From: Thelephora terrestris | Lineage: Eukaryota > Basidiomycota > Agaricomycetes > Thelephorales > Thelephoraceae | Direction: 5' to 3' | NCBI GenBank assembly: GCA_015956445.1 | Contig: WIUZ02000011.1 | Coordinates: 1,079,501 to 1,143,500 of the forward strand | Length of the DNA stretch: 64,000 nt | Part shown: in pieces, positions 2,722 to 37,224 of the stretch | Numbering within the stretch: position 1 is the first letter of the stretch | Layout of the letters: every line of letters starts with the position of its first letter | Notes under the pieces: generated by a model | What the model was told of the DNA's origin: nothing | Database searches by the model: none | Seen by the model: only the letters and a program-made list of their open reading frames with translations | Translations under genes and position numbers: made by a program

Positions 2722-3561
2722 CACTGGGGGAAAGGGGTCACTTACCCAGCGATTACATTGTGATTACATTGTGATTTTTTAGACAATGTGTCCAGCCTGT
2801 GGCCAGGAGTTACATGTTGAGTTCTTTTACAAAGTACCCATCAATGTGACCACAATGTGGCCAGTGGGTCCATCTTGATCACTTTCACAAAGTACCCATC
2901 AGTTCGATCACAATGTGCCCTGTGGGTCCATGCAGGATACATTGTAAAAGTATCCATCAAAGTGGCCACTGGGCACTTTGTGAAAGAAACCCCTGATTTC
3001 TTTCACAATTTTGTTCACAATGTATCCTACTGGGTGCCTGAGCCACTCATTGAGAGTTCTTTCAAAAGGTGCCCAGCAATGCAACCACAATGTCCCCAGG
3101 GGGTTCTTCTTAATGTTTTCACAATGAACTCTCAATGTGGTTGGATTTCACAACAAACTTTCAAAGAAACCATTGAGTATCTGGTTGAAAAGTTTGTGGA
3201 CACATTGCTGGATACTTTATGAAAGAACTCTCAATGAGTGGCTCAGGTGTATGCTGGACACATTGTAAGCAAAATTGTGAAAGAACACAGGGGTTCCTTT
3301 CACAAAGTGCCCAGTGGCCACTTTGATGGATACTTTTACAATGTATCCTGCATGGACCCACAGGGCACATTGTGATCGAACTGATGGGTACTTTGTGAAA
3401 GTGATCAAGATGGACCCACTGGCCACATTGTGGTCACATTGATGGGTACTTTGTAAAAGAACTCAACATGTAACTCCTGGCCACAGGCTGGACACATTGT
3501 CTAAAAAATCACAATGTAATCACAATGTAATCGCTGGGTAAGTGACTCCTTGCCCCCAGTG
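2722..3561. mobile_element. CACTG-type MITE 2 (840 bp) with long palindromic arms
   Basis: The ends are CACTGGGGGAAAGGGGTCAC (left) and the complement of CACTGGGGGCAAGGAGTCAC (right). The inverted arms run about 345 bp each (2722 to about 3070, and about 3215 to 3561), so most of the element is one hairpin. Short open frames recur on opposite strands only because of this palindrome. The target duplication is TCT at 2719-2721 and 3562-3564. Both arms carry GATTACATTGTGATTACATTG motifs close to the ends, as in MITE 1. The two elements share end sequence but differ inside, so they are related families rather than copies of one element. Confidence 0.85.
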
Positions 3562-4612: not shown

Positions 4613-6130
4613 GATACCCTAGAAAGAGTGGACAAGCAGTTGAGGTAGATACTGGTTGAGTGTTGAGTTCTGTACGACCACTGGAACAGAAGATCTGTTC
4701 AGAGATGCCCGAAGATGTCTGGGGAATTGCCGGGGAAGACCACAGCAACTAGAGTAAAGCGCGAGATTTGAGACAAAGCAGAGAGGGATAGGAACAGAGG
4801 TTGCAGAGAGTTGCGATGGAGAATCACCGTGTCAGGGCCACTCTACCCCAACAACTACCAGTTCACTGAGCCGACTCCGCAGAGTACTCACTAGTCCAAC
4901 TAGCTTGTGAGAGAACGATCACGTCTCTATTCTTCCGGTAGGTTGTCCGAGGTCACTACAAGTCAGGTCGAAATCCTAAAGAGAAACCCAACCTAAACCG
5001 TACTTCGTTCGGTTTAACAAGCAAGGGTTGATCCCTACAGCAGGATTGATGACTCCACCAGTTGATCGACTGGACGCTCGAGGTATTCTAATATGACTGC
5101 TGAGAGTCTAGAGTTACGAGGCGCAGTTGACGCGCAGAGCGGGAGGGAGAGCAGATGGGGATGTCTTGGATCAAACAAGAAACTCTGACTTGGCCTTAAC
5201 TGCAACTGGGCTGAGAAGGGCAGAGGATTTCCTGAGGTAACAAAACTAAGGTACTACGATACAGCCACAGTTGCTACTTATACTAAAGGAGTGGCCATGA
5301 CGTCAATACCCTAATATACCCTTATTAAGTCCAGAACAAAGGGAGATAAGGAGTGTGAGAACGCTAAGTAAGGGAAGCGAACAAAGGTGACGTGTGGGAG
5401 AATAAAAGACAAAGGGCCTTACTAGCGTGTGAAGGATTGTATAAAAGATAAGGAATGTCCGCATGAAACATAGGGGTAAAGATAACACTAGTCCAAAACG
5501 GAAATAGGAGCATGGGGTCGTGAAAGTTCGTACCTGGGGATCTCACCCAAGGGCCAGGTGTCAATCTCCCTTTACATGGCCTCTGCCAGCTGGATTCGGG
5601 AGTAGAGACATTCAACATCCCTTGTTGTCTGTAGGCGGTAACAGCATCACGGACTAGTGGCAACCTCAACGTACGTCCGAACATGAGGAGGTCGGGCCTA
5701 GACTCATGGGACATGAGGGATTACAGATTCGCCGGCGTTTCACGCTAACGGCTACTCCACATTCGCTTGGCTAACCAGAAGGAGTCTAAGGCACTCCTTA
5801 CGGATAACGGCGATTCCTTCCTCCGGTTAGGAGACTGTGATGTGACTGTCCACGTGTGTGATCAGGGTCCAGGGTTGATCGTAATCGTAAGGTCATGAGG
5901 GGTCGTAAAAAGGGGTTCGTGATGTCATAAAGGGGTCATCAGGGTCTTGAGACCTATTTTTAGTGCATGCGCGTTCTAGGCGTTCCGGAACGAAGTTCTT
6001 CCAAGGCCGTCCCGCGGGCCGAGGTGTCAGCTTGATGTAGTAAGCCAACGATGATGGTACAGGGGCGGAAGTTGATGTGACCCGGACCAATGAGGTTCGT
6101 CGAGGTAGGTCACGTGAAGGATCACCGATC
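4613..6130. other. Intergenic stretch, no gene recognised
   Basis: Only short frames without homology cues occur here. The stretch around 4936 repeats a roughly 20-base piece found at 335-356, and 5895-5940 repeats sequence from 785-835. This fits duplicated upstream DNA of the gene family on either side. Confidence 0.35.
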
Positions 6131-6132
6131 TA

Positions 6133-6140
6133 GGCTATAA
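6133..6140 (+). promoter_or_regulatory. TATA-like box of the intact coiled-coil gene
   Basis: GGCTATAAGAAGG lies about 70 bp upstream of the ATG at 6209. The leader between them is rich in CAACAACTTCCCC, a CA/CT-rich character common in fungal 5' leaders. Confidence 0.4.
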
Positions 6141-6208
6141 GAAGGACGTCTTCTTGGAGCCATCCTTGATCAGCAACACCAACAACTTCCCCATCATCTT
6201 ACCACAAC

Positions 6209-7947
6209 ATGTCCTTCCCAAACAACCATACCTACAAAGTCGCCAACGGCATCTCCACCATCTCCCGTATCGACCGTCGTGCTGCTAACCGCAAGACCTA
6301 CGCCTGTGCGGCGGGAACTCCCTATACCACGGATGACCAGGTATGGGGGAGACCTAGAGCTTTGTGTGCTAGCACTAACGCCTTCCTCTAGGTAGAGGTT
6401 ACGTTCTTTCGGCGTTGATGTTAAACTAACGGCTTCTAGATCTTGGAGGTCGTCACGGAAGTGGACGCCGAACGTCTCAGGGAGACGATCCCTCACTTGA
6501 TGGGGTTGACCTGGGATGACGAGCTCTGGGTCCGTACCATAATCGCCGAGAAGGTGGCCTTCCAGATGAGGGGTAGGTTCGGGGAGCTGGAGCATCCAAT
6601 CAAGAAGGAGCTCTGGTACACCCTGCAGAGGGGGATCTACGATCAGGACCTGTTGGAACACGGAGCTACCGTTCCCAGGGCTGTCCGTCATGCTACCGCT
6701 TCCACTAGCCTTTTGTGGTCGCTCGTTCGGGAGGGAGAAAGCCGGGTAGGTTTTCTGTCTGAATATTCGAGTATGACTCTCGACTAATCAGACTGCCTAG
6801 GTTGAACGATTGGAGCGCGAAGTGAAAGAGGCGAAGGCAGACGTCCTTCGTCTGTCAGCGGAGGGTCTTCAGATGAAGGAGACCTTGGCAGCCTTCCAAC
6901 AAGGAACGAACGAGGCGTTGGAGGCAATGGTCGCCAACCATCAGGAGTTGATCGCCGGGTTGAAGGTTAGGGACAACAACATCAAGGGGGCATTGGCCAG
7001 GAGGGATGAAAAGGTAATGCTGCTTTCATCATTGCTCAGAATGATGGAAGCTGACATTTCCTAGACCGAAGAACTCGAGAACGTGGTGGCTGTGTTGACG
7101 GCACAGGTCGAGTCCTTACAGGACAAAACCTGCAACTGCAAGGAGGGTCCCAAATTGGTTGGTCAGGGGACCGCCGATGTTCCGTTCGAGTTGGAGTACG
7201 CCGACGAGGTGGTACTCCCATCTCCTAACCCATCGTCCTATGCGACGCCTCCGATTGAGAACGCGGTTCCCGTTCCGACTCCGGCTCCGGCTTCCACTCT
7301 GGCCGCCTCCGACAAGGAGAACTGTCCTCGCTGCCTTTTGCAGCCGATCAGTCGGATGGTGAAGATCGAAGATGAAGTCATGGAGGTCGACTGGGCCGAA
7401 GATGTTCCGAGGGCCATTGAGGTACGTCTGGTGACAACAGGGCAGCGATGTAAACGCTCTCGACGCCGTGTTGCTCATCGCATGGCTCCATCGGCTAACC
7501 CTTATCCGCGTCCAGTTGAGTCGGATGGTGACCAGTCTGGTCGAGGTGGGGGACGAGAGTTCCGCTATCGGGTCAACCGTCCCTACCGACAGGTCGAGTC
7601 GGAGATCCAGCTTCGCCACCAGCGTAGACTCGCAATACAGGATCCCACCCAGGGGTCCGACGAGGGAGACGGAGGGTCGCTTGCCGACTACGTCGATAGT
7701 GCTGTCGAGCAGTCACCCAGTGATGGCGATGTGGGACCAAGTGTTCCAGAGTTCGGTGACATCTGGGAGGCTGATCGGTCCGCTCGAAGGTATCTCTTCC
7801 TATCGGCTTGAACTTGTCGTTCAGCTGAGTGCCGAAGATGGTGATGCCATGTTCGGAGAGGTCCTTGCAAGGAGGGGCCAGCACTACGATCTCCGGGATG
7901 GACAGTTGATGACCTTCAGGCCTGCCGTAGATAGAGTCGATTTTTGA
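6209..7947 (+). CDS. Unrecognised coiled-coil protein, intact family copy
   Basis: Proposed exons: 6209-6340, 6440-6745, 6801-7013, 7065-7421, 7516-7947. All four introns are short, GT-AG and phase 0, giving 479 residues. Residues about 45-146 form a compact globular segment (DDELWVRTIIAEKV; ELWYTLQRGIYDQDLL). Residues about 147-245 are a charged heptad-like coiled coil (VERLEREVKEAKADVLRL). The remainder is Pro/Ser/acid-rich, with a CPRC pair near 7337. The last exon could be read in another frame without the final intron, ending at 7811. The same exon borders in the 1204-4063 copy support exons 2-4. I know no family for it; paralogy suggests a lineage-specific gene. It might act in nucleic-acid or protein scaffolding, but nothing in the sequence shows that. 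Confidence 0.6.
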
Positions 7948-8920
7948 TGGGATTGGATAGCACTTGTATAGCTCGTTGTGGATTCGCTGGGAATAGTACG
8001 CGCGTGTGTGTGTTTCGAATGATTGGTGTGAAGGATAAGGAGTGCGAAGCATTCAAAACATAAGAAGTGATAAGAAGAGTTCGAAGAAAGAGCGGGTTAT
8101 AAAAAGTTTAAAAATACCATGTTCCTGACACACCGCGATGTCGTAGAGTAGCAGAGGTAGGCTGGTAGGAGTAGCACTAAGACACAGGGAAACAGAGAAC
8201 TTGACTTGAGAACTGGAGAGCGAACCGGGGAACTGGAGAACTCAGACTGGAACTGAACTGGGGGATCTGAGTCGATGCATTCCAGGCTATCTAAGACACG
8301 GTATATAAAGGAAACCAAAGAATCTCCTAAATAGGCAGTGTCAAGGATAGTCTGTGAGAGAGAAGGGGAACGGAAAAGCAAAACTAAGGAAAACTTGGTG
8401 AGAGGGGTAACTACTAGGGGGCAACAATGACGAAGGCTGAGTAACTACAGGGACAATGACGAAGGGGTGACGACGGCAACGAGAGAAAGCCATGTCATAC
8501 AGGAGAAAGCGCAGGAGAACAGCACTCGAGAGCGGAAGATAGCAATGGAGGCAAATGCCCAGAGAACGGAACAGCGCGGGGAATGGAACTAATCGATCGA
8601 CTGGGAAGTTCCGATTGATAAGGAATCGCGGGGACGAGAGCGTAGAACGATGAGATAACTGGAGATCAATTGCAGGAGGAGTCAATTGCAATAGATAGCG
8701 ATGCATCATGGAAACGAGAATCACTTTAATCAACTTTCAAGTGATCGAAAGTTGAAAAGTGGCCAAAGGTTCATGCCGCTTTGCAAGTGTGTGCGCCGCG
8801 CGGTTCCGTCTTTCAAGCTCTTTGAAGTGACCTCAAAGGCGGCAAAAGTGCCCAAAGTGACAGCTTGAATTTCAGTTGTTTGGTTCACTTCCATTCATGT
8901 TTAGGAGTTTGGGAAGAAAG
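7948..8920. other. Intergenic stretch, no gene recognised
   Basis: A TATATAAAGG motif lies at 8301, but no supported gene follows. At 8735-8875 several interleaved AAGTG / CACTTT and TTCAAG / CTTGAA words form imperfect inverted repeats, possibly a decayed small element. Nothing else is supported. Confidence 0.3.
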
Positions 8921-9932: not shown

Positions 9933-10460
9933 TCATAAGTGCAGGACCTAAACAGCAAAGGAAATATCACAGCGGCGAGTACTAGAGTTGAGTATACAAT
10001 GGCACAAGGAAAGGACTTGACAAAAATGATAAGGAGCGCAGGCGTGGTGGAGGTTTTGGGGAAAGAGAGGAATGCGTGAAAATATCAGAGAAGACCTCTG
10101 GAATGCCACGTCACACGGATCACGGTTGCTGTCCTCTCTTCGGAAGTTCTCATTTTACGTTCCTCTTACCATGTGACGGAGACTGGACCCACCGGTTTAG
10201 TCACTTTGGGGGCTTTTCAGCAATCAATGGCCTTTCTCCCTGTTTTGCCCCATTCGTGCTCTTTTTCGATCACTTTAGGCAGTTTGACACTTCGTGAAAA
10301 AACTGTTTTCGTGATGTGGCAAAGAGCTAGAATGAGGGTTGAAATGATGGCAAAAGGCGAGGGGAACAAGGTGTTGGGGATATAAAAGTTCTGGAGGGTC
10401 AAGTAGTGAGTGGAAGAAGGCAGAACGCGAGGATTCGAAACAGGGTTCCCGGGGAGCCCC
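9933..10460. other. Left flank of the foldback element, no gene recognised
   Basis: No supported gene. The final 20 bases (GGTTCCCGGGGAGCCCC) touch the foldback left end at 10461. The right flank begins CCCTGTGTCCCGGG, so a CCC target duplication is possible but cannot be proven in such a C-rich context. Confidence 0.35.
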
Positions 10461-10587
10461 TTCAGCTATCTTTTCTCCATGGGTCATGGACCATACATCG
10501 TGACAATTCTCCATGGGTCATGGGCCATGCAACATTGTACAACGCGTTGTACAACCCATGACCCATGGAGAAAAGATACCATTGTAC
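10461..10587 (+). repeat. Left terminal inverted repeat of the foldback
   Basis: Inverse match of 20922-21028. It contains three CCATGGGTCATGG palindrome-bearing words and the TTGTACAACGCGTTGTACAA motif, where the right copy reads TTGTACAACGTTGC... and TTGTACAATGCGTTG. It is cut from its array by the copia insertion at 10587/10588. Confidence 0.75.
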
Positions 10588-10835
10588 TGTTGGAAAACGC
10601 AGATCCCGTGCCAAAGGCCCGGCTATGAGCCGTGAGGATCGGCCCGACTCTTTGAGGTTGTATGTGGCGCTTTGATATGTTTCACTGTCTTTCGTCTTGC
10701 ATCCAGTTCTCTTTGTCACTTTCACTTCTTTGATATATGTAGCTTACGCGTACACCACCCAACTGTATATAAAGCTAGCTATTTATCTCGAATGAACTAT
10801 CTGTTTTTACCCATCTTATCTTGCGCACGCCGTTA
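10588..10835 (+). repeat. Left LTR of the copia element
   Basis: 248 bp, starting TGTTGG and ending CGCCGTTA. It carries a TATATAAAG box near 10765, the likely promoter for the genomic transcript. It matches the right LTR at every position I compared. Confidence 0.93.
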
Positions 10836-10851
10836 GGTTATGAGCCCGGCG
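10836..10851 (+). promoter_or_regulatory. Primer-binding site, half-tRNA-iMet type
   Basis: GGTTATGAGCCCGGCG abuts the LTR. Its complement contains GGGCTCATAACC, the anticodon arm (CAT anticodon) of initiator tRNA-Met, not its 3' end. Some copia-group elements are known to prime from a 5' half of tRNA-iMet cleaved in the anticodon loop, and this site fits that mode. Confidence 0.75.
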
Positions 10852-10983
10852 TTGTAACTCTCTTGCTCATCGAGTCAAACGACCTAGACGACCTACTTTC
10901 GCCGACCCCAACGACCCTCGTTATTGCTAGACGACCCCTCTGCACCACCTACCCCTTTCCGACACTCGAGGAGCGCACTTACC

Positions 10984-13900
10984 ATGTCAGACTCGAATTC
11001 TAACTTTTCTATCCTCTCCACTGTCCCCAAACTTGACCCCGACGGCACCAACTGGCATCTGTTCAAGATCCTGTTCGCGAATTTCATGGATGGCCATGTC
11101 CTTGAACGACTTTACAAACCCGAGAACTACCCTGCCGAGACGTACGAAGACGTCGAACCGAAGCCATCCAAGAAGGATGGAGAAGACGAGAGTGACCTCC
11201 AGAAGCGTATGGACGTTTGGGAGGAAGGAGAGAGCCGGTGGAAGGAAGAAATGAAGTCCTGCAGAAAGGACAACGCGAAAGCGATAGCTGCTTTAGCAAA
11301 GGTACTCCCCACCTCTGTCTACATCGATATATCAAAGGATAAGCACTTCTGCGGCATGTGGAAAGCCCTCGAAACGAGATTCGAGGCACTCACCGAGCAC
11401 CAAAAGTCAAATCTGAAGGGTCGCCTCTACCAGATGGTCTGCAACGAGAAGGACAACGTCATCGCCCACCTCGAAGATATGGAATCCATCTACCAGCAAC
11501 TTGCCAGCCGCAGCATCCTCATTCCCGACGAGGATTACGTCGACGCGATCATCCGCTCCCTACCTCAGTCGTACTCCAACATAATATCGTCGACGGTCAA
11601 CATAAATCGAAAAATGAAGCTACCTACCTTGCCAGCCGAGATTAAGGACATCGCTCGCAAAGAATACGAGGCTCGACAAAGCATGCAGCCCCGAGGAGGA
11701 AGAGCTCGATCGAACGAGATCACCTTGCACGCCGACGCGAGAGGACGCGGGAGAGGCCGAGGACGAGGACGAGGAGGTCCCAGAGGAAGAGGAAACTCCA
11801 GAGGAGGAGGCGGAGGAGGCGGAGGAGGAGACCGAGGAACCGGCGACAGAGACCAGTCAAGATTCACCTGTTTCAACTGCGGAGGCAAAGGGCACAAGGC
11901 CGCCGATTGCCCGAGCCCCAGGAAGCCCCGAGGAGAGAAGCGAGACGAGAGGAACGGAAATGGGGAAAGGAGAGAGCGGGAAACCGCTGCGATAGCGGAG
12001 GACGAATTTGAGGAAGCCTGGATGGCTATGGCCCAAGGTACCAGCGTGTTTGCTGACGAAGTGGCATTGGAGCCAGAAACCCCCTCCTATCCTGAAGAGA
12101 TCCCTGTTCCCACCGAAACGACCTTAGAACAGGCCCTCGCGATGCCATCGAATGGACGACGGACAAGCAACTCACCTTCCACGGAAATCTACGACTCCGG
12201 GTGTACTCGACATATGACACCTGATCGACACCGCCTAATCAATTATCGGTCAATCGCACCGAAATCTATTGGCGCCGCAAATCAAGAGTCGTTCTCAGCG
12301 ATTGGTGAAGGAGATATGATTGTCTACGCACCGAACGGCTCAACGCCCACGAAAATCCGTCTCCGCAACGTCCTCTACGCCCCGAACATGGGCTGCACCC
12401 TCATCTCCATCAGCCAAATTGATCAGGCCGGCTATTCCGTGGCCTTCCAGGATGGAAAGTGCGTCATCCGGAACCCAAAAAGCCAAGTTGTCGCCCAGAT
12501 CCCGAGATCCCGTGGACTCTATCGAGTTGAAGAAAACCCCCTTTACGCCCTGAGTGCTGAGACACTCACCCTCGATGAACTTCACCGACGCCATGGGCAC
12601 GTTGCCCACTCGACTCTAAAGAAGATGGTCAGCGAAGGTCTTATCGCTGGAATCAGGCTGAAAGAAGAACCTCCTACCCCCTGCAAACCCTGCCTACTTG
12701 CGAAAGCGAAGAGGAAGCCGATCCCGAGTTCCCGCACCGGGAAGCGATCCGAGAAGCTCGGAGAGCTCATCTATAGTGACGTCTGGGGACCTGCCACTAC
12801 GCGAACCGTTGGGCACGCCGAGTACTACGTCATCTTCGTTGACGACGCGAAGCGTTGGATCTCGATTGATCTGATGCGTAAGAAGTCAGAAGTCCTCGCC
12901 AACTACCAGAATTACGAAGCGTGGCTGAGGACCCAGTTCGGTGTGGACATCAAAACCTTTCAGTCCGACAAGGGAGGAGAATATACTTCCGGTGACTTTC
13001 TGCAACACACCAAGTCGAAAGGAACGGTTCATCGCTTCTCGGTCCACGACGTTCACGGCCAGAACGGTGTCCCGGAGCGAGCACACTACACCCTGCTCGA
13101 TGGCGTTCGAGCCCTTCTATCCACAAGCGGACTACCGGCATCGCTCTGGGGAGAAGCGCTTAAGCACACGGTCTGGATCCGAAACCGATCGCCCGCAAAA
13201 GCCCTCGATGGAATGACGCCTTATGAGGCTCTGTATGGAGAAAAGCCGAGCTTGAAGGGAACGAGAGAGTGGGGGAGCCTCTGCTGGGTGACGAAGAAGA
13301 CGTCCAAGATCCGCGAACGCGCCGAGGAAGGCCGATGGATTGGTTTCGACGACTCGAGCAAAGGGCACAGGATCTACTGGCCCACCAGGAGAACCATTTC
13401 TGTGGAATACGACGTCAATTTTATGCCCGCTCCTGACCCGCCGCTGCTCGAGGGGGAGATAGAGAATACCGATTTCGATTTTGATGATTTCGACGACCCT
13501 CAAGAACCTTCTAAAGTCACCGCCAAACCCGTCGAAGTCCATCAAGAACCTGTCGATCAGAGCGATCAGGAAGCTGTCAAGACGTCAAACCTTGACGAAC
13601 GTCAAACCTCGAACGACGAACCTGCCGAGCAATCTAAGTCCCTCGAGGAGCCTGTTCCTAATCCCGAACCTGCCGGAAATCCTCCAGCCGTAAAGGCACC
13701 CGCAAGACGACCCTGGTATCAAGCTTACCACGATCAGTCCAACGTTCTCGAGTCCCGACTCCGACCCAGAGACAAGACAAGCACCCCTTCTAAAGATCAA
13801 GAACCTCAGGGGGAGTCCGGACAAGAGGAACTCGCAATGGTCGCTGCGATCTCCTTCCACGAAGGAATGGAACCCAGGACTATTCAGGAAGTCTACGGAA

Positions 13901-15432
13901 GGCCGGATAGATCGCAATGGGAGGAGGCGATGAAGGAGGAGCTCGAGAAGCTGATTAGGAGGAATACTTGGAAAATCATTCCAAAACCCGAAGGAGCCAA
14001 TATCGTCGGATCCAAGTGGGTTTTCCGACTCAAGAAGGATGCCAATGGGAACGTCACATCTCACCGAGCGAGACTGGTTGCCCAAGGATTCACGCAAGTC
14101 CACGGAGTCGACTTCGATGACACCTTTGCCCCGATCGCGCGGATGGTCTCGATCCGGACGGTTCTAGCACTCACGGCTAGATTAGATTGGGAGATCCATC
14201 AAGTGGATGTCAAGTCTGCCTACCTTTACGGCGAACTCAACGACGATGAAGTCATCTACATGAAACCCCCTCCTGGCGAGATCAAGATCTGCAAAGACGG
14301 CTACGTCCTTCGACTCCTGAAGGCGCTCTACGGACTCAAACAGAGTGGACGCCGATGGTACCAAGTCCTCCGGAAAGTCCTTGGAGATATCGGTCTAACC
14401 CGATCTGAACACGACCACGCAGTGTTTTTCCGCCGCGAAAACGGAACCCTCACCACCATCCTACTTGCCCACATCGACGACTTCACCATCACCGCTGCGG
14501 ATTCTGCCCTCATCAAAGCGACGAAAGACGGACTTCGAAAACACCTCGAGATCCATGATATGGGTGAGATTCACTGGATGCTCGGACTCGAGATCAAGAG
14601 GAATCGTGAACTCTGCACCATCTCCCTATCCCAACGCTCCTACATCGATTCTATCATTACTCGCTACGGTTTCGAAGACGCCAAGCCTTTATCCATCCCC
14701 ATCGTCGCCAACTCCACCTTATCTCGAAACGACTGTCCAACGACCACCGCTGACATCGGCAAGATGGCCGGACGCCCTTATCGAGAAGCCGTCGGATCTC
14801 TGATGTATGCCGCTGTCGGAACCCGTCCCGACATTTCCTTCGCTGTTGGACAAGTCGCGCGTTTCTCAGACAACCCCGGACAACCACACTGGGAGGCCGT
14901 AAAACGAATCTTCTGTTATCTCAAAGGAACACGTGACCATTGGCTCGTCTACGGAGAGCAAGGCCCTTCGATCTCTGGCTATACCGACGCTGACGGAATG
15001 TCCAACGAGGACCGACACGCCATCTCCGGATTCGCCTTCCTTATTGATGGAGGCGCCGTGTCCTGGAGCTCGAAACGCCAATCGCTTGTCACCCTCTCGA
15101 CCGCCGAAGCTGAATACGTTGCCGCCACCCACGCCGCCAAGGAAGCCATCTGGCTCAGAGAATTTATCTCTGAAGTCTACCAACCCCAAGGCCCGATGCC
15201 TCTCCATTCCGATTCCCAATCCGCCATCGCTCTGGCTCGCAATGAGCAATTTCACGCACGCACGAAACACATCGACATCAGATTTCACTTTATCCGTTAT
15301 GTAATAGAAGCCGGCAAGATTGTTATCGACTACTGCCCTACCGAAGATATGGTCGCCGATACCCTCACGAAAGCTCTGCCAAGCGCCAAGGCCAAACACT
15401 TCGCGTCGGCCCTAGGCCTTCGGAAGGTTTGA
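10984..15432 (+). CDS. Copia Gag-Pol polyprotein
   Basis: The open frame runs from 10924 to a stop at 15432. The ATG at 10984 (MSDSNSNFSILSTV) is the more natural Gag start. Order of parts: Gag, an Arg-Gly-rich tract (about 11720-11850), a CCHC zinc knuckle (CFNCGGKGHKAADC, about 11869), an aspartic protease with DSG (about 12193), integrase with an HHCC region (about 12590-12700) and catalytic core (about 12780-13250), reverse transcriptase (LYGLKQSGRRWY, about 14330; IDDF, about 14476) and RNase H (about 14970-15400). The order protease-integrase-RT-RNase H is diagnostic of Ty1/copia. It looks whole. The protein would form virus-like particles and carry out reverse transcription and integration in the family's usual way. 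Confidence 0.93.
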   Translation: MSDSNSNFSILSTVPKLDPDGTNWHLFKILFANFMDGHVLERLYKPENYPAETYEDVEPKPSKKDGEDESDLQKRMDVWEEGESRWKEEMKSCRKDNAKAIAALAKVLPTSVYIDISKDKHFCGMWKALETRFEALTEHQKSNLKGRLYQMVCNEKDNVIAHLEDMESIYQQLASRSILIPDEDYVDAIIRSLPQSYSNIISSTVNINRKMKLPTLPAEIKDIARKEYEARQSMQPRGGRARSNEITLHADARGRGRGRGRGRGGPRGRGNSRGGGGGGGGGDRGTGDRDQSRFTCFNCGGKGHKAADCPSPRKPRGEKRDERNGNGERRERETAAIAEDEFEEAWMAMAQGTSVFADEVALEPETPSYPEEIPVPTETTLEQALAMPSNGRRTSNSPSTEIYDSGCTRHMTPDRHRLINYRSIAPKSIGAANQESFSAIGEGDMIVYAPNGSTPTKIRLRNVLYAPNMGCTLISISQIDQAGYSVAFQDGKCVIRNPKSQVVAQIPRSRGLYRVEENPLYALSAETLTLDELHRRHGHVAHSTLKKMVSEGLIAGIRLKEEPPTPCKPCLLAKAKRKPIPSSRTGKRSEKLGELIYSDVWGPATTRTVGHAEYYVIFVDDAKRWISIDLMRKKSEVLANYQNYEAWLRTQFGVDIKTFQSDKGGEYTSGDFLQHTKSKGTVHRFSVHDVHGQNGVPERAHYTLLDGVRALLSTSGLPASLWGEALKHTVWIRNRSPAKALDGMTPYEALYGEKPSLKGTREWGSLCWVTKKTSKIRERAEEGRWIGFDDSSKGHRIYWPTRRTISVEYDVNFMPAPDPPLLEGEIENTDFDFDDFDDPQEPSKVTAKPVEVHQEPVDQSDQEAVKTSNLDERQTSNDEPAEQSKSLEEPVPNPEPAGNPPAVKAPARRPWYQAYHDQSNVLESRLRPRDKTSTPSKDQEPQGESGQEELAMVAAISFHEGMEPRTIQEVYGRPDRSQWEEAMKEELEKLIRRNTWKIIPKPEGANIVGSKWVFRLKKDANGNVTSHRARLVAQGFTQVHGVDFDDTFAPIARMVSIRTVLALTARLDWEIHQVDVKSAYLYGELNDDEVIYMKPPPGEIKICKDGYVLRLLKALYGLKQSGRRWYQVLRKVLGDIGLTRSEHDHAVFFRRENGTLTTILLAHIDDFTITAADSALIKATKDGLRKHLEIHDMGEIHWMLGLEIKRNRELCTISLSQRSYIDSIITRYGFEDAKPLSIPIVANSTLSRNDCPTTTADIGKMAGRPYREAVGSLMYAAVGTRPDISFAVGQVARFSDNPGQPHWEAVKRIFCYLKGTRDHWLVYGEQGPSISGYTDADGMSNEDRHAISGFAFLIDGGAVSWSSKRQSLVTLSTAEAEYVAATHAAKEAIWLREFISEVYQPQGPMPLHSDSQSAIALARNEQFHARTKHIDIRFHFIRYVIEAGKIVIDYCPTEDMVADTLTKALPSAKAKHFASALGLRKV

Positions 15433-15439
15433 GGGGGAG

Positions 15440-15687
15440 TGTTGGAAAACGCAGATCCCGTGCCAAAGGCCCGGCTATGAGCCGTGAGGATCGGCCCGAC
15501 TCTTTGAGGTTGTATGTGGCGCTTTGATATGTTTCACTGTCTTTCGTCTTGCATCCAGTTCTCTTTGTCACTTTCACTTCTTTGATATATGTAGCTTACG
15601 CGTACACCACCCAACTGTATATAAAGCTAGCTATTTATCTCGAATGAACTATCTGTTTTTACCCATCTTATCTTGCGCACGCCGTTA
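15440..15687 (+). repeat. Right LTR of the copia element
   Basis: 248 bp, the same length and sequence as the left LTR, preceded by the polypurine tract GAGGGGGAG and followed by the TGTAC duplication. Confidence 0.93.
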
Positions 15688-15692
15688 TGTAC

Positions 15693-17735
15693 AACCCATG
15701 ACCCATGGGTAATGGAATAGTATACGTTGCCCATGCCCCATGGGTTGTACAACACTATCCCTTCCCCATGCCTCATGGGTTGTACAATGCTATCCTTTCC
15801 CCATGGGGCATGGGTTGTACAACGCTATCCAATTTCCATGCCCCATGGGTTGTACAACACTATCTGTTCCCCATGGGTCATGGGTTGTACAACGCTATCC
15901 TTTCTCCATGGGGCATGGGTTGTACAACGCTATCCTTTCTCCATGGGGCATGGGTTGTACAACGCTATCCGATTCTCATGCCCCATGGGTTGTACAACAC
16001 TATCCGATTCCCATGCCCCATGGGTTGTACAACACTATCCATTCCCCATGGGGCATGGGTTGTACAACACTATCCATTTCCCATGCCCCATGGGTTGTAC
16101 AACGCTATCTGTTCCCCATGGGGCATGGATTGTACAACGCTATCCGTTCCCCATGCCTCATGGGTTGTACAATGCTATCCGTTCCCCATGGGTCATGGGT
16201 TGTACAACACTATCAGTTCCCCATGGGTCATGGGTTGTACAACACTATCCTTTCTCCATGGGGCATGGGTTGTACAACGCTATCCATTTCCCATGCCCCA
16301 TGGGTTGTACAACACTATCTGTTTCCCATGGGGCATGGGTTGTACAACACTACCCATTCTCCATGCCCCATGGGTTGTACAACACTATCTGTTCCCCATG
16401 GGTCATGGGTTGTACAACACTATCCAATTCCCATGCCCCATGGGTTGTACAACGCTATCCATTCCCCATGGGGCATGGGTTGTACAACACTATCCAATTC
16501 CCATGCCCCATGGGTTGTACAACGCTATCCATTCCCCATGGGGCATGGGTTGTACAACACTATCCATTTCCCATGCCCCATGGGTTGTACAACGCTATCT
16601 GTTCCCCATGGGTCATGGGTTGTACAACGCTATCCATTCTCCATGGGGCATGGGTTGTACAACACTATCTGCTCCCCATGGGGCATGGGTTGTACAACGC
16701 TATCCATTTCCCATGGGTCATGGGTTGTACAACACTATCCATTTCCCATGCCCCATGGGTTGTACAACACTATCTGTTTCCCATGGGGCATGGGTTGTAC
16801 AACACTACCCATTCTCCATGCCCCATGGGTTGTACAACACTATCTGTTCCCCATGGGTCATGGGTTGTACAACACTATCCAATTCCCATGCCCCATGGGT
16901 TGTACAACGCTATCCATTTCCCATGCCCCATGGGTTGTACAACGCTATCCATTTCCCATGCCCCATGGGTTGTACAACGCTATCCATTTCCCATGCCCCA
17001 TGGGTTGTACAACACTATCCGTTCCCCATGGGTCATGGGTTGTACAACGCTATCTGTTCCCCATGGGTCATGGGTTGTACAACGCTATCTGTTCCCCATG
17101 GGTCATGGGTTGTACAACGCTATCCTTTCTCCATGGGGCATGGGTTGTACAACACTATCTGCTCCCCATGGGGCATGGGTTGTACAACGCTATCCATTTC
17201 CCATGGATCATGGGTTGTACAACACTATCCATTTCCCATGCCCCATGGGTTGTACAACACTATCTGTTTCCCATGGGGCATGGGTTGTACAACACTACCC
17301 ATTCTCCATGCCCCATGGGTTGTACAACGCTATCCATTCCCCATGGGGCATGGGTTGTACAACACTATCCAATTCCCATGCCCCATGGGTTGTACAACGC
17401 TATCCATTTCCCATGCCCCATGGGTTGTACAACACTATCCTTTCCCCATGGGGCATGGGTTGTACAACACTACCCATTCTCCATGCCCCATGGGTTGTAC
17501 AACACTATCTGATTCCCATGCCCCATGGGTTGTACAACACTATCCATTCTCCATGGTGCATGGGTTGTACAACACTATCTATTTTCCATGCCCCATGGGT
17601 TGTACAATGCTATCCAATTCCCATGCCCCATGGGTTGTACATCACTATCCAATTCCCATGCACCATGGGTTGTACAACAGCATCTTGTGCCCATGGGGCA
17701 TCAGTTGCAGAATGGTGTCCTTTCTCCATGTCCCA
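15693..17735 (+). repeat. Left 35-bp minisatellite array of the foldback (about 57 units)
   Basis: The unit is 35 bp: GGGTTGTACAACACTATCC, then a variable 4-6 bases, then CCATG-SSSC-AT, where SSSC is CCCC, GGGC or GGTC. Each unit holds two self-complementary words, TTGTACAA and CCATGG or CATGCCCCATGG. Because 35 is not a multiple of three and the unit has no stop in any frame, all three plus-strand frames stay open for about 2 kb and spell the same cyclic 35-residue pattern. That explains the long open frames without coding. Confidence 0.92.
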
Positions 17736-17999
17736 TGGATTATATCACTATTCCAGGAAAGGAGATACTTTATAAATCAACCATTAGCTGTGTGAATTTG
17801 AAAAAATTAGACTCTGTTTGTATGCATGATAGACCATATATCAGTTTGTGGCTCTAACCTAATGGAAACTAAACTTAACCTGATAATAGCCACAACCTAA
17901 TCCCCAATCTAACCTGAGCCAATGTAAACTTGACCCATGAACCTAAGCCTAACCTAATCCTAAACCTGGTCTAATCCCAAATCTAACCCTAACCTGACC

Positions 18000-18083
18000 T
18001 GACCTAACCTAACCTAACCTAACCTAACCTAACCTAACCTAACCTAACCTAACCTAACCTAACCTAACCTAACCTAACCTATA
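18000..18083 (+). repeat. (CCTAA)n / TTAGG pentamer array, left half
   Basis: About 16 near-perfect CCTAA pentamers. The mirror array at about 18748-18812 has only about 9-10 perfect TTAGG units, so the two halves differ here by slippage. The surrounding 200 bp is degenerate CCTAAT/CTAACC text. TTAGG is the insect telomere motif; most basidiomycetes use TTAGGG. Confidence 0.85.
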
Positions 18084-18747
18084 CCTAACCTAACCTGGTA
18101 TGGGCAAACCTAACCTACCTATCATGACCTGTTTCAGCCTAATGTCATGTATGCCGGCCAAGACTAACTTCACCCAGTTGCAAACATATGACTTGGGTCA
18201 CAGGACCGTAAAGCAAACTGCAGTCCCCTCACTCTGTGCCCAACCATCCCATAAGCCCACAGACGCACATATATATCATCAGCAACTCAGCATCATGCTT
18301 ATCACCCATGTTCAACCACAAACCACTCTCACCCTTTGTTCTGTGCCATCTCACAGACAAACCACAACTCAAGTTCATCCACCTCCTTGGGCCCACAAGC
18401 AAGTGGCCTACAAACATATGGTTTATAGACTTATAACATATTCCACACAAGGATTAATATGGGTGGGTGAGCTAGAGTTATGGTTAGGCTTTGAGATAGC
18501 ACAGAACAAAGGGTGAGAGTGGTTGTGGTTGAACATGGGTGATAAGCATGATGCTGAGTTGCTGATGATATATATGTGCGTCTGTGGGCTTATGGGATGG
18601 TTGGGCACAGAGTGAGGGGACTGCAGTTTGCTTTACGGTCCTGTGACCCAAGTCATATGTTTGCAACTGGGTGAAGTTAGTCTTGGCTGGCATACATGAC
18701 ATTAGGCTGAAACAGGTCATGATAGGTAGGTTAGGTTTGCCCATACC

Positions 18748-18812
18748 AGGTTAGGTTAGGTATAGGTTAGGTTAGGTTAGGTTAGGTTAGGTTAGGTTAG
18801 GTCAGGTCAGGT
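18748..18812 (+). repeat. (TTAGG)n pentamer array, right half
   Basis: Inverted partner of the 18000-18083 array, shorter and interrupted once (GGTATAGG). Confidence 0.8.
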
Positions 18813-19084
18813 TAGGGTTAGATTTGGGATTAGACCAGGTTTAGGATTAGGTTAGGCTTAGGTTCATGGGTCAAGTTTACATTGGCTCAGGTTAGATTGG
18901 GGATTAGGTTGTGGCTATTATCAGGTTAAGTTTAGTTTCCATTAGGTTAGAGCCACAAACTGATATATGGTCTATCATGCATACAAACAGAGTCTAATTT
19001 TTTCAAATTCACACAGCTAATGGTTGATTTATAAAGTATCTCCTTTCCTGGAATAGTGATATAATCCATGGGACATGGAGAAAG

Positions 19085-20921
19085 GACACCATTCTGCAAC
19101 TGATGCCCCATGGGCACAAGATGCTGTTGTACAACCCATGGTGCATGGGAATTGGATAGTGATGTACAACCCATGGGGCATGGGAATTGGATAGCATTGT
19201 ACAACCCATGGGGCATGGAAAATAGATAGTGTTGTACAACCCATGCACCATGGAGAATGGATAGTGTTGTACAACCCATGGGGCATGGGAATCAGATAGT
19301 GTTGTACAACCCATGGGGCATGGAGAATGGGTAGTGTTGTACAACCCATGCCCCATGGGGAAAGGATAGTGTTGTACAACCCATGGGGCATGGGAAATGG
19401 ATAGCGTTGTACAACCCATGGGGCATGGGAATTGGATAGTGTTGTACAACCCATGCCCCATGGGGAATGGATAGCGTTGTACAACCCATGGGGCATGGGA
19501 ATTGGATAGTGTTGTACAACCCATGACCCATGGGGAACAGATAGTGTTGTACAACCCATGCCCCATGGGAAACGGATAGTGTTGTACAACCCATGGGGCA
19601 TGGGAAATGGATAGTGTTGTACAACCCATGACCCATGGGAAATGGATGGTGTTGTACAACCCATGCCCCATGGGGAATGGATAGTGTTGTACAACCCATG
19701 GGGCATGGGAAATGGATAGCGTTGTACAACCCATGACCCATGGGAAATGGATAGTGTTGTACAACCCATGACCCATGGGGAATGGATAGTGTTGTACAAC
19801 CCATGGGGCATGGGAAATGGATAGCGTTGTACAACCCATGCCCCATGGAGAATGGATAGCGTTGTACAACCCATGACCCATGGGGAACAGATAGCGTTGT
19901 ACAACCCATGGGGCATGGGAATTGGATAGTGTTGTACAGCCCATGACCCATGGGGAACAGATAGTGTTGTACAACCCATGGGGCATGGAGAATGGGTAGT
20001 GTTGTACAACCCATGCCCCATGGGAAACAGATAGTGTTGTACAACCCATGGGGCATGGGAAATGGATAGCATTGTACAACCCATGGGGCATGGAAAATAG
20101 ATAGTGTTGTACAACCCATGCACCATGGAGAATGGATAGTGTTGTACAACCCATGCCCCATGGGGAAAGGATAGTGTTGTACAACCCATGGGGCATGGGA
20201 AATGGATAGCGTTGTACAACCCATGGGGCATGGAAATTGGATAGTGTTGTACAACCCATGACCCATGGAGACAGGATAGCGTTGTACAACCCATGGGGCA
20301 TGGAGAATGGATGGTGTTGTACAACCCATGACCCATGGGGAACAGATAGCGTTGTACAACCCATGACCCATGGGGAACGGATAGCGTTGTACAACCCATG
20401 GGGCATGGGAAATGGATAGCATTGTACAACCCATGACCCATGGGAAATGGATAGTGTTGTACAACCCATGCCCCATGGAGAATGGATAGTGTTGTACAAC
20501 CCATGCCCCATGGAGAATGGATAGCGTTGTACAACCCATGACCCATGGGGAACAGATAGTGTTGTACAACCCATGGGGCATGGGAATTGGATAGCGTTGT
20601 ACAACCCATGCCCCATGGGAAATGGATAGTGTTGTACAACCCATGGGGCATGGAAAATGGATAGTGTTGCACAACCCATGCCCCATGGAGAAAGGATAGC
20701 GTTGTACAACCCATGACCCACGGGGAACGGATAGCGTTGTACAACCCATGGGGCATGGGAATTGGATAGCGTTGTACAACCCATGCCCCATGGGGAAAGG
20801 ATAGCATTGTACAACCCATGAGGCATGGGCAAGGGATAGTGTTGTACAACCCATGGGGCATGGGCAACAGATACCATTGTACAACCCATGGGGCATGGGC
20901 AACGGATACTATTCCATTACC
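19085..20921 (-). repeat. Right 35-bp minisatellite array of the foldback (about 51 units)
   Basis: The same 35-bp unit as the left array, reversed. On the minus strand all three frames are open for the same reason. The outermost and innermost units match the left array unit by unit, including rare variants (CATGCACCATGG, TACATCAC). The interior order of variants differs, and near 20865 the right arm has an extra ACAGATACCATTG unit. Confidence 0.9.
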
Positions 20922-21028
20922 CATGGGTCATGGGTTGTACAATGCGTTGTACAACGTTGCATGGCCCATGACCCATGGAGAATTGTCACGATGTATGGTC
21001 CATGACCCATGGAGAAAAGATAGCTGAA
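20922..21028 (-). repeat. Right terminal inverted repeat of the foldback
   Basis: Reverse complement of 10461 to about 10567 with a few changes. It ends GGAGAAAAGATAGCTGAA at 21028 and is followed by CCCTGTG. Confidence 0.75.
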
Positions 21029-22011
21029 CCCTGTGTCCCGGGAGGAGATGTGAAGCGGGGAAGAACGTCCAAGGAGCAATAGAAGCGGTCCAGTGACCAG
21101 GGTGAAGGTTGCCTCGAGGCAGTTGCGAGGCCGAGAAGAGTCCAGAACACAATGGAGTCGAGCAACCAATAGGAAGGAATCAGAGAATGGGAGATTTGAT
21201 GTCACGACACTGCCTCTCCTTATGAGGCCAACACTTCCTACGACATCAACAACCATTTGTACGACACTCCCGCCACCATTGCTCATGACAATGAAGTCGC
21301 TCAAGACTTCCTTCGTTAACACGAGGCTCCTTCCCAAGTCTGGGATCAGGCCGGATACAATGCCCCTGTTCAGAACAAAACACATAGCGACAACTCGTAT
21401 TGCGCACTACCATTCCCGGGGCCTTCACAAAGTTTCGCGCAAATCCGTTATGATTCCACCCTGCGACCTCCCTTCTTATAAACACTAACCTCCTCGTAAA
21501 AAGGTTTGTTTGTACACCATACCATGCAGGTTTAACACTGCTCTGTTGCCGTTATCTCCCATAGGTCGTAGGTATCCATGTAATGATTTGTAAAAATCAA
21601 GGCGAGATGTTTCAACAACGAGTCTGGTTTTGGGAGTCAACATACGCTTGAGCTACACCTGAATGTCGAATAATGACCGTACAAGACGCCGAAACTCAGT
21701 GCACAAGACGGTCGAATGAACTCCGCCTCGTTATACTATGATTCGATGCCAGGAAGGGGAAAGGAGTAGCCTGCAGCCTGCATGTCCCAGCAAACACCCA
21801 CGAAGACGTCAACGGACCCCAACACCGCAATGAATTTGAGACAAAGGCTACTTGCTACAGTATAGCACGTGTACAACTGTCTGATTCTCGAATTGCTACA
21901 AGACAGCGCGAAAGATAAGATACGAGGGGACAACGGACTTAGATGTTGGGTCATCTGCGGCTAAAATAAACATCAATAAACTGCCTGAGGCATGAGAGAA
22001 AAGCAGTTATT
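21029..22011. other. Intergenic stretch between the foldback and the PKA subunit gene
   Basis: No gene with recognisable features. Short frames on both strands overlap and lack motifs. The 3' untranslated region of the PKA regulatory subunit probably occupies the last few hundred bases. Confidence 0.35.
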
Positions 22012-27309: not shown

Positions 27310-30300
27310 CATGCAAGCGCCCGCACCACGTATTGCACTCGTCGCGCCGCAGAAAGAGAGAGAAGGGGATTTCTCCTTTTCGTAGTTTCCTGGTCGGTTT
27401 CATGTCTAACGTTGCAGTGTCCGGGCGTCTGTTTCCGCGTTGCACAGATGGAACACAACCACCTCGGATCAAACGCGCCAATTTCACGACTCCTCGAAAT
27501 CGTTGAGAAAAGGTTGGATAACATCGCTGCCACCCTCAGGTACGGTATGATATTCCCAAGCCTTGGTTGTGGTTGGCTTACTGTAGTGTTTTCTCCTGGA
27601 AGTCCTACTGATGCTGCGACATCCAAGCAGGTTAGAACGCGGGTGTCAGACTGACTCGAATCAACGAGCCGCTGATTCCGATTTGACCCAGATCGATGCC
27701 ATGGTTTTGAAGATCTCGTCAGTACTGAGGAAAGCCAGGAACATCAAGAACCGCTTCGCGCCCATAAACCGAATCCCTCCGGAAACCTTCGCTCTCGCTG
27801 CCACGTTCCTTACCAAGCAACGCGACGTGCTCAACGCCACAGCCGTCTGTCAACAATGGAGAACAACATTGCTCACTTTTCCCCATGTGTGGCGCAAGGC
27901 GGGTGGAGATTCGTCGGAACTCGAGGCGTACCTAGAACGGTCCAAGTCCATTCCTATCGAAGTCGACTTGATCTCCACGGAGCTGGTCACCTCCATCGTC
28001 CCCCACGCCTTTAGACTCGTGCATTTGACAGTATCAATTATAATACCGGGTGGCCTCAAGCAGGTCGCAGAACACCTATGCGAACCCATCCCCACACTTC
28101 GCTCCCTAAAATTCCTCACCAAAAATCCCCAACTGTTCGAAATTAGTCTCCCCTTAGGTCTCTCCGAAGGCATCTTCCGGCACCTGCAGACCCTGCACCT
28201 GCATGGTATTTTATCGTTGTACGGATCCCCAAGCTTCCCGCACATAACCGAACTATTCATGTGCACGGGAGATTCAACCTACATTCCAATCCGCCGCCTC
28301 TTGAGTACATTGGGGCAACTACCAGGACTAGTAAAAGTCAGTCTGCTTTTCCAGGCGAATTGGTACACCGACGTCCCCTCGGCCCAAATCGTGACACTTT
28401 CTCGCGTGGAGGAGATTTCCCTACTCACGCCTGACATTTCTGGTCCATTAAGTGGAGGAGCCATCTCGCCTATCCTTCAAGTTCTTGAGCTCCCAAAAGC
28501 CACAGTAGTTTCCTTGCGATCCCCATTTCCCATGGCGCCCACCATTCCTGTCCTTTCCTATCTGTCCTTTAGCAAACGTCTTCCGAATTATGCACAACTC
28601 CTGGAGCTACAAATCGAAACCGAAAGTGGGTCCGGAAAGATCACCTTCAGAAGCGCTTCTCAAGCAGTGCTCACCTACCACACCGGCAGTTTGTACAATT
28701 ATAGGCGGGAGCTTCATCTCTGGGGAGGGCTTCCAATCTATTCCGTACGGAGGGTAACTGCGGTCCAATCGGACCTGATGCTTGGCGAAGAAGACAAGTG
28801 GTTGGCAGGTTTGCTTGGAGCACTGGGGTTCCTGGAGGTCTTGGAACTTAGTGGTGACTGTGGTCACGTCCTTAGGCGGTTGCGTCAACGGATGGTGAGA
28901 GGTGCAGTATGTGTTCGTATTGACACCCTCGTCGTCCGTGGTGGGGAATACGCGAAAAGTCAGGCATCAAAGCTCGACGGGATCAAGGGCGCAATAGGTT
29001 TTGAAGGCATGACAGTGACTTACATTCCGGACCCCGGTGCATACGAAAGGTTCTTGGATTTTGAGAGTTCAAGCGAGGGGGATTCGGATTCGGATAATGA
29101 TTACACAAGTGATGACAGTGACTAGGATGATAACGACGACGGGCGAGGATGGTCACGGGATTGGTGAAGGTGATGGTAATGACAACATTTACGACTATTG
29201 AGCAGACTATATGTATTAGGTCGTTCGGAGATCTCGAGGAAAGAGAGTAATCGGTTTTCACCCATGAAGCAATTCTCTCTGTCCTCGCCGCCGCCTTTCC
29301 TCAACAGTGTACCCAGGATTGAACTGGTAGGAGCAGAAATTCGTACCGTCCTCAATCCCGTCAGAGCTTTACAACGCGATCACCGGGCCCCTCCCTATGT
29401 GAGGGTACAAGTGAGGACTGATAGTTAGCTTGTAGGACGACCTACGTTGGACCTCCACGCCCGTTCAACTCCGGGGACCATCAACGCTTGTAGCGCACCG
29501 TGATCAGATCGCCGAGTCTGAAGGTGGGTCAGAAGGTGCCCGGTCCCCATCTTTTACCCAAGATGTGCGGCGATGGCCCTACGGCGAGTTTTGGTGGCCA
29601 AGGCCAGGAGCGTGATGAAAACAAAGGCACGAGCAGACATTATCGCGAGACGGGCCCGGAATTTCCAAACGAAGGTGAATAATGACCGGGACTCGGTAGT
29701 TCTTTTCCTGGAGACTATCCCGAGGCTCAAATTCTGCTCAGAAAAAGTGGCGTAGGGACATCACAGTAGCGGAAGAACGGAAACGGAGGGTCGGACGTTG
29801 AGCTTCTAAGCGTCCACGCCGTGGGAGCTATCGGGGTTTACCTCACACACCTTCGCCACAAGAATGGAGACAATAATCCCAGGTTTCTTGACTATCGATG
29901 CTGGTTGATGATTCAAGCCTCAAGAGCTGCACGAAATAGGCGCCGCCGAGGTGATAGCCCGACTTTTACGGATTGAAGTCACAGCTAAACGCTGCGCACA
30001 GTCGTGTTCGAGGCGACCGTGGAACAGCGCTCTCAAGTTCTATTGGGCTATTAGAGAGCATGTCTCACGCGATCACTCTCGCTCGGTGTCTCGGAAGAGA
30101 GTTGAACCGGGCAGGGCAGGCAGCAGCGTCGAACAATAGCGAACAATCCGCACACCCCTTCTAGCTCCTGCGGTTGCCAATTGTCGGTACCAGTAAGTAT
30201 GACGTCGTGCAGGGTCGCCCATAGGTGGGTTTTTTAATTGCGGGGGAGCTCCCTTCACCCGCTCAAAAGTCTCGGGGCCCGCGCTAGCCTGCGTGATCGC

Positions 30301-35574: not shown

Positions 35575-37224
35575 CTATTCCTCATCCCGAACCTCATCCC
35601 GCTCGTCGTCCAAATCCCCTCTACTCGTCCCCGCCTCTCTTTCCTCATGGACTCTGGGATCTGAGGCGCAGATCAGGGTCGTGGTGACACCAGCAGCATC
35701 AGCCAAGCGTTTCAACTTGAGCGCCTGGGGTCTCTCGTGTTCCCCGCAACGTACGGTGAGGGTTTCAACGCCAGAATGCATCCTATCCTGCGTCATCTCA
35801 CCACACAACCACCGGAGCCCTTCACCACATTCACCCCCGAGTTCCAGATGTTCCAAAAATTCTAGGTCCTGCAACAACCTGCTAAGCCAGTCGAACTCCG
35901 AGCCGATCAGCTGGTGGCCCATGTTCACAGTCAACCTCCGCACGGTACGAAGAGGGAGTTGTCTCCAGATTCGGCTTTCGTGGGACTCGTAGTCCGATAA
36001 TGGCCCCGCAAGGTATTTCAGAGTCGCTCCAGAAGGGCTTCGGAAAGTGACTTCGTCGGATGACATGCCGATATTGACTTGCAACTCGGGGAGTTGAGCA
36101 AGGTTCGGGAGGTGTTCACGGAACGTCGTGTGAGGAAAGATGGGGCGATAGTACGTCAACCTTGGCAATGATTGCACGCAAAGCGACGTGAGCTTTGGGA
36201 GCCGGAGGTATTGGAGGATGTCTGGAAGGTGTGCATCCGTCACGTGGTCGGCGAACACGGACAGGCTCATCTCCTGCACGTGCGAGAGTGTGACCACCCG
36301 ATGATCCTCGTTGGTGTATAGGCTCGCGTGGAATGTGATGGATACCCTCTCCAGCGACGGAAGTTGCTCGAACGTCCTCAAGAACCGGTCCATCGGCGTC
36401 GAAACGTATCTGATCGTGTGCAGTACGAGTTCGGTGACGTTGGGAAAGGACTGGGGTCCAAGGAACGTCGAGATTCCTCTCAATTCCAGCTTCTTCGTCT
36501 GTGAAAGGAATGGGTTGTCGAGATCTGGGGGGAATTCCAACGCATGTGGGTGAGGCGGGATGACGGTGACGCGGAAGGTGTGCAGCATGGGGAGGGGATT
36601 TCGCAGCCGTTCCGCAATCTGGCTGAAGTTTGATGATTTGACCAACCGGACAGTTAACCCAGCCAGTCGGGAGGCATGGGGGATGACGAACTCAACAAAC
36701 GAAGGGTATAGGAGGCTAACATCGAGCGGTGTAGACTTGGATCGCTCGATGTACGCCTTTATCTCTGGTGAATTTCCACCGGCGTTGCGCCAGAGACGGG
36801 GAAAGGAGAGTAATGTTTCTCTCCAGTGTCGACAGACCGCAGTCGCGTTGACCAAGTCGCGCTCTTTCGCGAAGAACGTGGCAACATGGGCCAGTGTTTC
36901 CGGAGGGATCCGGTTGACGGGTGCGAGGCGGTTCTTGATGTTCTTCATCCTCCTAAATATCGTTGGCATCCTCGAGATCGCATCGTTGATCTAGGTACCG
37001 ATCGAACGTCAGAGTTTGCTTTCGTTGGTGTGACCTTGTCCAAACCTGCGCAGCTGTCTTGACATCTGTTTCACTGCCGAGCGGAAGAACTGGGAGTGAG
37101 TTTCTGTGAACGGCGCTCGAGGAATATTCTACCTGAGGGTGCCAGCGATGCTATCCAACCTCCCTTCGATGACGTCAAGGAGTTGAGAAAGCGGCGGCTG
37201 GAGATCGGGTGGGGCCTCCTTCAT
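35575..37224 (-). CDS. F-box protein, family copy D
   Basis: Proposed exons 37133-37224 (92 nt), 37035-37053 (19-nt microexon), 35575-36990; 508 residues. Exon 1 reads MKEAPPDLQPPLSQLLDVIE and ends in phase 2. Direct splicing to the big exon breaks the frame; the microexon restores it and gives SCAGLDKINDAISRM, parallel to copy E. The F-box follows (VNRIPPETLAHVATFFAKE, NATAVCRHWRETLLSFP). A leucine-rich beta-helical region then runs to a strongly charged tail (EEREAGTSRGDLDDERDEV). Likely an SCF substrate adaptor. It is the closest relative of the pseudogene just downstream of its start. Confidence 0.8.

Follow-up and report, generated by a model that had tools for sequence, protein, structure and literature searches.

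A foldback element of Thelephora terrestris with unlike terminal heptamers, probably a copy of a mobile transposon family

The element at positions 10454-21035 of the window, the 64,000-nucleotide stretch of Thelephora terrestris DNA analysed here (contig C3, 1079501-1143500, in an assembly of 40.6 Mb and 60 contigs), is very probably one copy of a non-autonomous family of foldback DNA transposons that is mobile. What moves is the segment that opens with GAGCCC(C) and closes with (C)CCTGTG, and 7 bp of target are duplicated on insertion. The initial annotation of this DNA had read the structure as a foldback family, a reading upheld by 52 inward pairs of unlike ends in the genome, by 7-bp target-site duplications (TSDs) around all 33 elements inspected (three with one mismatch) and by empty sites. 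Very long inverted repeats with tandem repeats inside them and a TSD of fixed length, both present here, are the marks of the foldback class.

Structure of the window element

The two ends, here called A and B, enclose the following parts, given in window coordinates together with the flanking duplications and a nested LTR element.

10447-10453, no strand: target-site duplication TCCCGGG, 7 bp, A side
10454-10460, plus strand: A terminal heptamer GAGCCCC, with no inverted counterpart at the other end
10461-10582, plus strand: A-side sub-terminal inverted repeat with CCATGGGTCATGG motifs, of which 107 bp (10461-10567) are matched
10583-10587, no strand: 5-bp TSD TGTAC of the nested LTR element
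10588-15687, plus strand: nested copia-like LTR element
10588-10835 and 15440-15687: LTRs of the nested copia-like element, 248 bp with 0 differences
10924-15432: unbroken ORF of the nested copia-like element
15688-15692, no strand: TGTAC, second copy of the TSD of the nested LTR element
15730-17679, minus strand: A-side array of the 35-bp unit, 55.7 copies
17745-18383, plus strand: A-side core arm, including (AACCT)n at 17940-18096
18384-18461, plus strand: central loop of 78 bp, which occurs in either orientation in other copies
18462-19059, minus strand: B-side core arm, including (AGGTT)n at 18748-18864, 92% to the A-side arm
19125-20934, plus strand: B-side array of the 35-bp unit, 51.7 copies
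20922-21028, minus strand: B-side sub-terminal inverted repeat
21029-21035, minus strand: B terminal heptamer CACAGGG, read inward
21036-21042, no strand: target-site duplication TCCCGGG, 7 bp, B side

The duplication TCCCGGG is perfect and lies just outside both borders. The initial annotation had placed the element at 10461-21028, which is correct for its inverted part and leaves out seven further bases at each end. Its description of the ends as inverted likewise applies to the first 107 bp, which return inverted at 20922-21028 with 98% agreement, and not to the outermost heptamers, GAGCCCC at A and CACAGGG at B, which are not mutually inverted and lie outside the sub-terminal inverted repeat. 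The two opposed 35-bp arrays were recovered at 15730-17679 and 19125-20934, and the palindromic core as the arms 17745-18383 and 18462-19059 (92%) around the 78-bp loop, both as initially described. The best ungapped pair of arms, 15849-18041 and 18763-20955, is 2193 nt long and 91% complementary.

The nested copia-like LTR element is young. Its insertion explains why only 0.52 of the window element is covered by the element's own inverted repeat; when it and one of its TSDs are subtracted from the annotated span, 5463 bp remain, in agreement with the 5.46 kb given initially. The window element also contains 28 exact copies of the 13-mer CCATGGGTCATGG or its reverse complement, and the remaining 53,418 window bases contain none.

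Copies across the genome

The check proposed at the outset, a search for further copies that sit at unrelated loci between short duplications, was positive: the 107-bp terminal inverted repeat (TIR) is present at full length and at least 98% identity in at least 40 places, with 40 of 121 candidates scored, and TSDs accompany copies of the family. The palindromic core was counted by hand in at least 40 places, with 40 of 130 candidates scored. Ends were sought with a 16-base pattern for each, allowing at most one mismatch, and with the reversed pattern as control, which yielded 63 A ends and 59 B ends in the 40.6-Mb genome and 0 for the control. Sorted by place, these 122 ends form 52 inward pairs of unlike neighbours versus one like pair, with 16 ends unpaired, and about 50 two-ended copies are present in the genome. 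The like pair (B..B), on contig C12, joins ends of different subfamilies (L046 and L047) and thus probably represents two broken copies. The first 40 bases separate three sub-groups.

The unlike neighbour pairs span 459-12478 bp, with a median of 4450. The size of the window element, initially regarded as unusual, is therefore ordinary within the family, and this copy is long because of the copia-like insertion. Coverage by the element's own inverted repeat reaches at least 99% in 20 of 32 elements, and array sizes are unequal between the two arms of one element. Since the heptamers differ, the orientation of the core relative to the ends can be scored; the loop is present in 26 of the 32 elements, 10 one way and 16 the other, which suggests core inversion by exchange between arms as a simple explanation.

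Tandem duplications of an end were observed at two loci, L028 (6044-7658, with an 807-bp step) and L035 (893-2400). The first has three A ends, the outermost of which shares its exact TSD with the B end, and the second has two A ends with a junction identical to that of L028, so that a compound-ended copy was probably itself copied.

Target duplications, empty sites and nesting

The flanks of 33 two-ended elements, 32 tabulated ones and the outer element of L024, were inspected for TSDs. An exact 7-bp TSD is present in 30 of them and a TSD with one mismatch in the remaining three (L021, L037 and L042), with exact flank matches of 5, 6 or 8 to 11 bp in 0/33 and of 4 bp in 1/33. When flanks were swapped, 0 of 1056 comparisons matched exactly at 7 bp and 2 of 1056 matched with one mismatch. 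No strong target consensus was found among the 29 exact TSDs tabulated, GTANTAC being absent.

Empty sites were examined by joining the flanks of each element with one 7-mer and comparing the product against the collected loci. A paralogous site is continuous through the junction for at least 10 of the 33 elements, some of these matches being weak. The clearest case is the outer element of L024, the empty site of which corresponds to window positions 5234-5473 over 240 of 240 gapless positions at 98.75%. Gapless empty sites were also found for L027 in four loci (89-93%) and for L044 in eight loci (81-86%), while those of L021 and L031 match at 94% with one or a few gaps. Weak empty sites were found for L036 (partial, up to 83%), L041 (about 71-75%) and L042 (about 80-83%). 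For L016 and for the inner element of L024, the surrounding tandem array makes a match easy. Insertion is also visible as nesting in both directions with a second family (family 2, the family of the window element being family 1), as a family-2 element lies in a family-1 array (L024, TSD GTACAAC) and a family-1 element lies in a family-2 array (L016).

A repeat at about 5234-8013 of the window carries gene-like ORFs (window ORF 7083-7811) and has foldback elements inserted in it. It is also present in L010, L020, L029, L031, L035 and L037, and its ORFs as taken from L037 had no match in Pfam.

A second family with a common plan

Family 2, with the ends GAGCCCA and CACAGGT, has a structural plan in common with family 1; its listed ends, at 14 places for A and 14 for B, make up at least 10 inward pairs. 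The family-2 element in L024 (697-4363) contains a 45-bp unit with CCGTACGGCGCCGTACG, 27-bp arrays and opposed CTAAC/GGTTA tracts. Its ends can be aligned with family-1 ends across GAGCCCnTTCAGCTA and CACAGGnTTCAGCTA, the CCATGnnnCATGG sites falling at corresponding positions, and it carries 39 exact copies of the 13-mer CCATGGGTCATGG or its reverse complement, the sub-terminal positions of which match between the two families. The first site of this copy is inverted between the ends: in equivalent surroundings, one end reads ACC and the other GGT. A further family-2 copy, C3:428467-440682, is the host of the family-1 element of L016. A sub-terminal pattern for family 2 and its relatives, allowing up to two mismatches, gave 146 matches including family-1 ends, and its reversed control gave 0.

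The site CCATGnnnCATGG is a near-palindrome, CCATG-nnn-CATGG, with a variable centre. Among 1941 centres of the 35-bp unit from 32 elements, GGG (686), ACC (538), CCC (512) and AGG (118) were counted, and inverse forms are balanced for GTG/CAC (24/23) and GAG/CTC (9/7), as if in these forms and in GGG/CCC small hairpins had flipped. ACC and GGT are unbalanced (538/3) and the inverse of AGG is outside the 15 commonest centres, so that inversion accounts for only part of the pattern. A 22-base piece of the unit had no exact match in viral and prokaryote collections, a comparison that is uninformative for fungi.

Candidate transposases

KDZ is the commonest of the four transposase families searched in the genome, with 125 rows of profile matches, compared with three for the hAT dimer and two for MULE; the P-type RNase H profile (PF21787) had 0 matches in the genome and its control was without a match too. 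The 125 rows were condensed by hand to 58 KDZ places, and none of these falls within an interval of under 40 kb bounded by neighbouring family-1 ends; one further place, C58:1453926, judged by eye, is outside such intervals too. A KDZ partner with diverged ends may exist. No transposase was found in the elements with listed ORFs (L037, L010 and L036), of which 10 ORFs were scanned against Pfam; nine had no match at 0.1 and one had a weak Mim2 match below its cut-off. Two further ORFs scanned from other loci are likewise not transposases.

The KDZ load is heavy genome-wide, with stop codons in many of the 125 match rows. Two unpaired ends have a KDZ place in their neighbourhood: a family-2 A end at C13:560716 (minus strand), about 10 kb from C13:550614, and a B end at C8:885677, about 21 kb from C8:863749. 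At C1:3357625, next to KDZ genes, a 13-mer resembling the B end was taken as a chance match, as no family sequence follows it in the 51 bases examined.

One of the KDZ (Kyakuja-type) transposases that are abundant in this genome is tentatively put forward as the most likely mobiliser, at a chance somewhat below even. Kyakuja elements are characterised, in the cited part of their description, by 7-bp TSDs, 5'-CA..TG-3' termini and a lack of TIRs (PMC12730594), and the termini of the present family, read from the B end, are CA..TC rather than CA..TG. In Cryptococcus, KDZ1 is reported with 8-bp TSDs and 241-bp TIRs, and KDZ2 and KDZ3 with TSDs of 4-8 bp (PMC12810828, as excerpted); the length of the TSD is thus not diagnostic of KDZ.

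That the same family is moved by a transposase other than KDZ, whether hAT7-like, MULE-like, P/Galileo-like or of an undescribed superfamily, has a nearly even chance, its mobility not being in dispute. This would agree with the 7-bp TSDs reported for hAT7 families of rust fungi (PMC12730594) and for Galileo foldbacks (PMC4168063), and with the association of the most similar end plan, the asymmetric heptamers of Tm1, with a MULE-type transposase (PMC3169594). However, the hAT-dimer and MULE rows in the genome number only three and two, the TSDs of Tm1 are given as mostly 9 bp (PMC3169594), which does not favour a MULE-like mobiliser, and the absence of the GTANTAC target consensus from the family does not favour a Galileo-like one.

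Origins without mobility

The initial annotation had left two other readings in place, both of which leave the many copies with TSDs unexplained. In the first, the element is an immobile palindrome amplified locally by fold-back duplication after a chromosome break. Its near-perfect dyad symmetry, the unequal arrays in its two arms and the tandem end duplications of L028 and L035 would fit this origin, but the occurrence of 52 unlike pairs genome-wide, the 7-bp TSDs in 33/33 inspected elements (three with one mismatch) and the empty paralogous sites make it highly improbable. Least probable of all is an assembly artefact in which a single arm was mirrored through an inverted join. Long inverted repeats are prone to mis-assembly, but here the heptamers at the two ends are unlike, the arms disagree at about 9% of positions, the two flanks have only the TSD in common, and the plan recurs in dozens of places.

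Relation to known foldback elements

As a mobile foldback family, these elements resemble the FB elements of Drosophila, which have tandem repeats within very long inverted repeats, a 9 bp TSD and a transposase of the MULE-like class; TSD length and transposase class separate FB from the present family.

The closest published plan is that of the nematode MULE/foldback element Tm1. According to the cited part of its description, this element of root-knot nematodes ends in asymmetric 7-bp motifs that lie beyond the inverted repeat, its arms consist of tandem units that vary in number, most of its copies are non-autonomous, and a rare copy has one motif on both sides (PMC3169594); asymmetric heptamers are thus not unprecedented. 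The same source gives for Tm1, an animal family, TSDs of mostly 9 bp, a unit of about 14 bp, the motifs CGGTTAA/CCTACCC and a known MULE transposase (PMC3169594), whereas the TSD here is 7 bp, with exact matches of 8 to 11 bp in 0/33. The present family is set apart from Tm1 by its TSD length, its sequence, its near-total palindromy, a module plan common to two families and its fungal host.

Galileo, of the P superfamily in Drosophila, shares long, internally repetitive TIRs and a 7-bp TSD, and footprints and gel shifts place transposase sites in its TIR tandem repeats (PMC4168063, PMC3688188). It differs in its GTANTAC consensus and P-type transposase, and an asymmetric heptamer is not described in the cited parts of these papers (PMC4168063, PMC3688188). 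Kyakuja elements (KDZ, Agaricomycotina) have in common with the family the 7-bp TSD, one CA end and outermost bases without inversion, but the families described carry TET/JBP genes, and the cited part of the source makes no mention of foldback arms (PMC12730594).

The foldback form is reported to have evolved repeatedly, with different transposases (PMC3169594, in the part cited). Among titles and abstract beginnings in the open-access literature, a scope outside which most subscription papers fall, no fungal foldback family of such a kind was found. The present family has many copies with sharply defined borders, and left can be told from right by the differing heptamers, which allows core inversion to be counted directly. 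The role of repetitive foldback arms, as binding arrays or as structural by-products, thereby becomes a testable question.

A possible mechanism of movement

The elements move as a unit, and their insertion is staggered by 7 bp. This movement probably relies on a transposase supplied in trans by another element; an enzyme of the DDE type would pair one A end with one B end, cut at the asymmetric heptamers and transfer the element by cut and paste. The near-palindrome CCATGnnnCATGG, being both sub-terminal and tandemly repeated, is a putative repeated binding site for this enzyme, and long arms may allow more transposase to be loaded. There is a precedent in Galileo, where the THAP domain is reported to bind sites inside the TIR tandem repeats (PMC3688188, in the cited part). 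The length of the arrays would drift through unequal exchange or slippage, and the loop would invert through exchange between the arms.

It is possible, if rather doubtful, that these elements form a clade of fungal foldbacks whose transposase, of the KDZ class or an undescribed one, pairs two ends that must differ, and whose arms are runaway arrays of the putative binding site. If so, the retention of this site, of a core rich in CCTAA and of the end hexamers by two families with different units (35 bp and 45 bp) would mean that the plan is under transposase selection while the spacers turn over.

Other features of the window

Five ORFs on both strands (27611-29125, 35575-36969, 38904-40235, 46461-48068 and 49312-51171) are alike by eye and are probably a paralogous cluster; the first of them, 27611-29125, had no Pfam match at 0.001.

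A separate and unrelated foldback of 840 bp is present at 2722-3561, with arms of 306 nt that are 97% complementary, 58-bp repeats, the ends CACTGGGGG..CCCCCAGTG and an apparent 3-bp TSD, TCT. Positions 6633-7290 of L037 look like an empty site of this foldback, which resembles a short non-autonomous element of the CACTA type.
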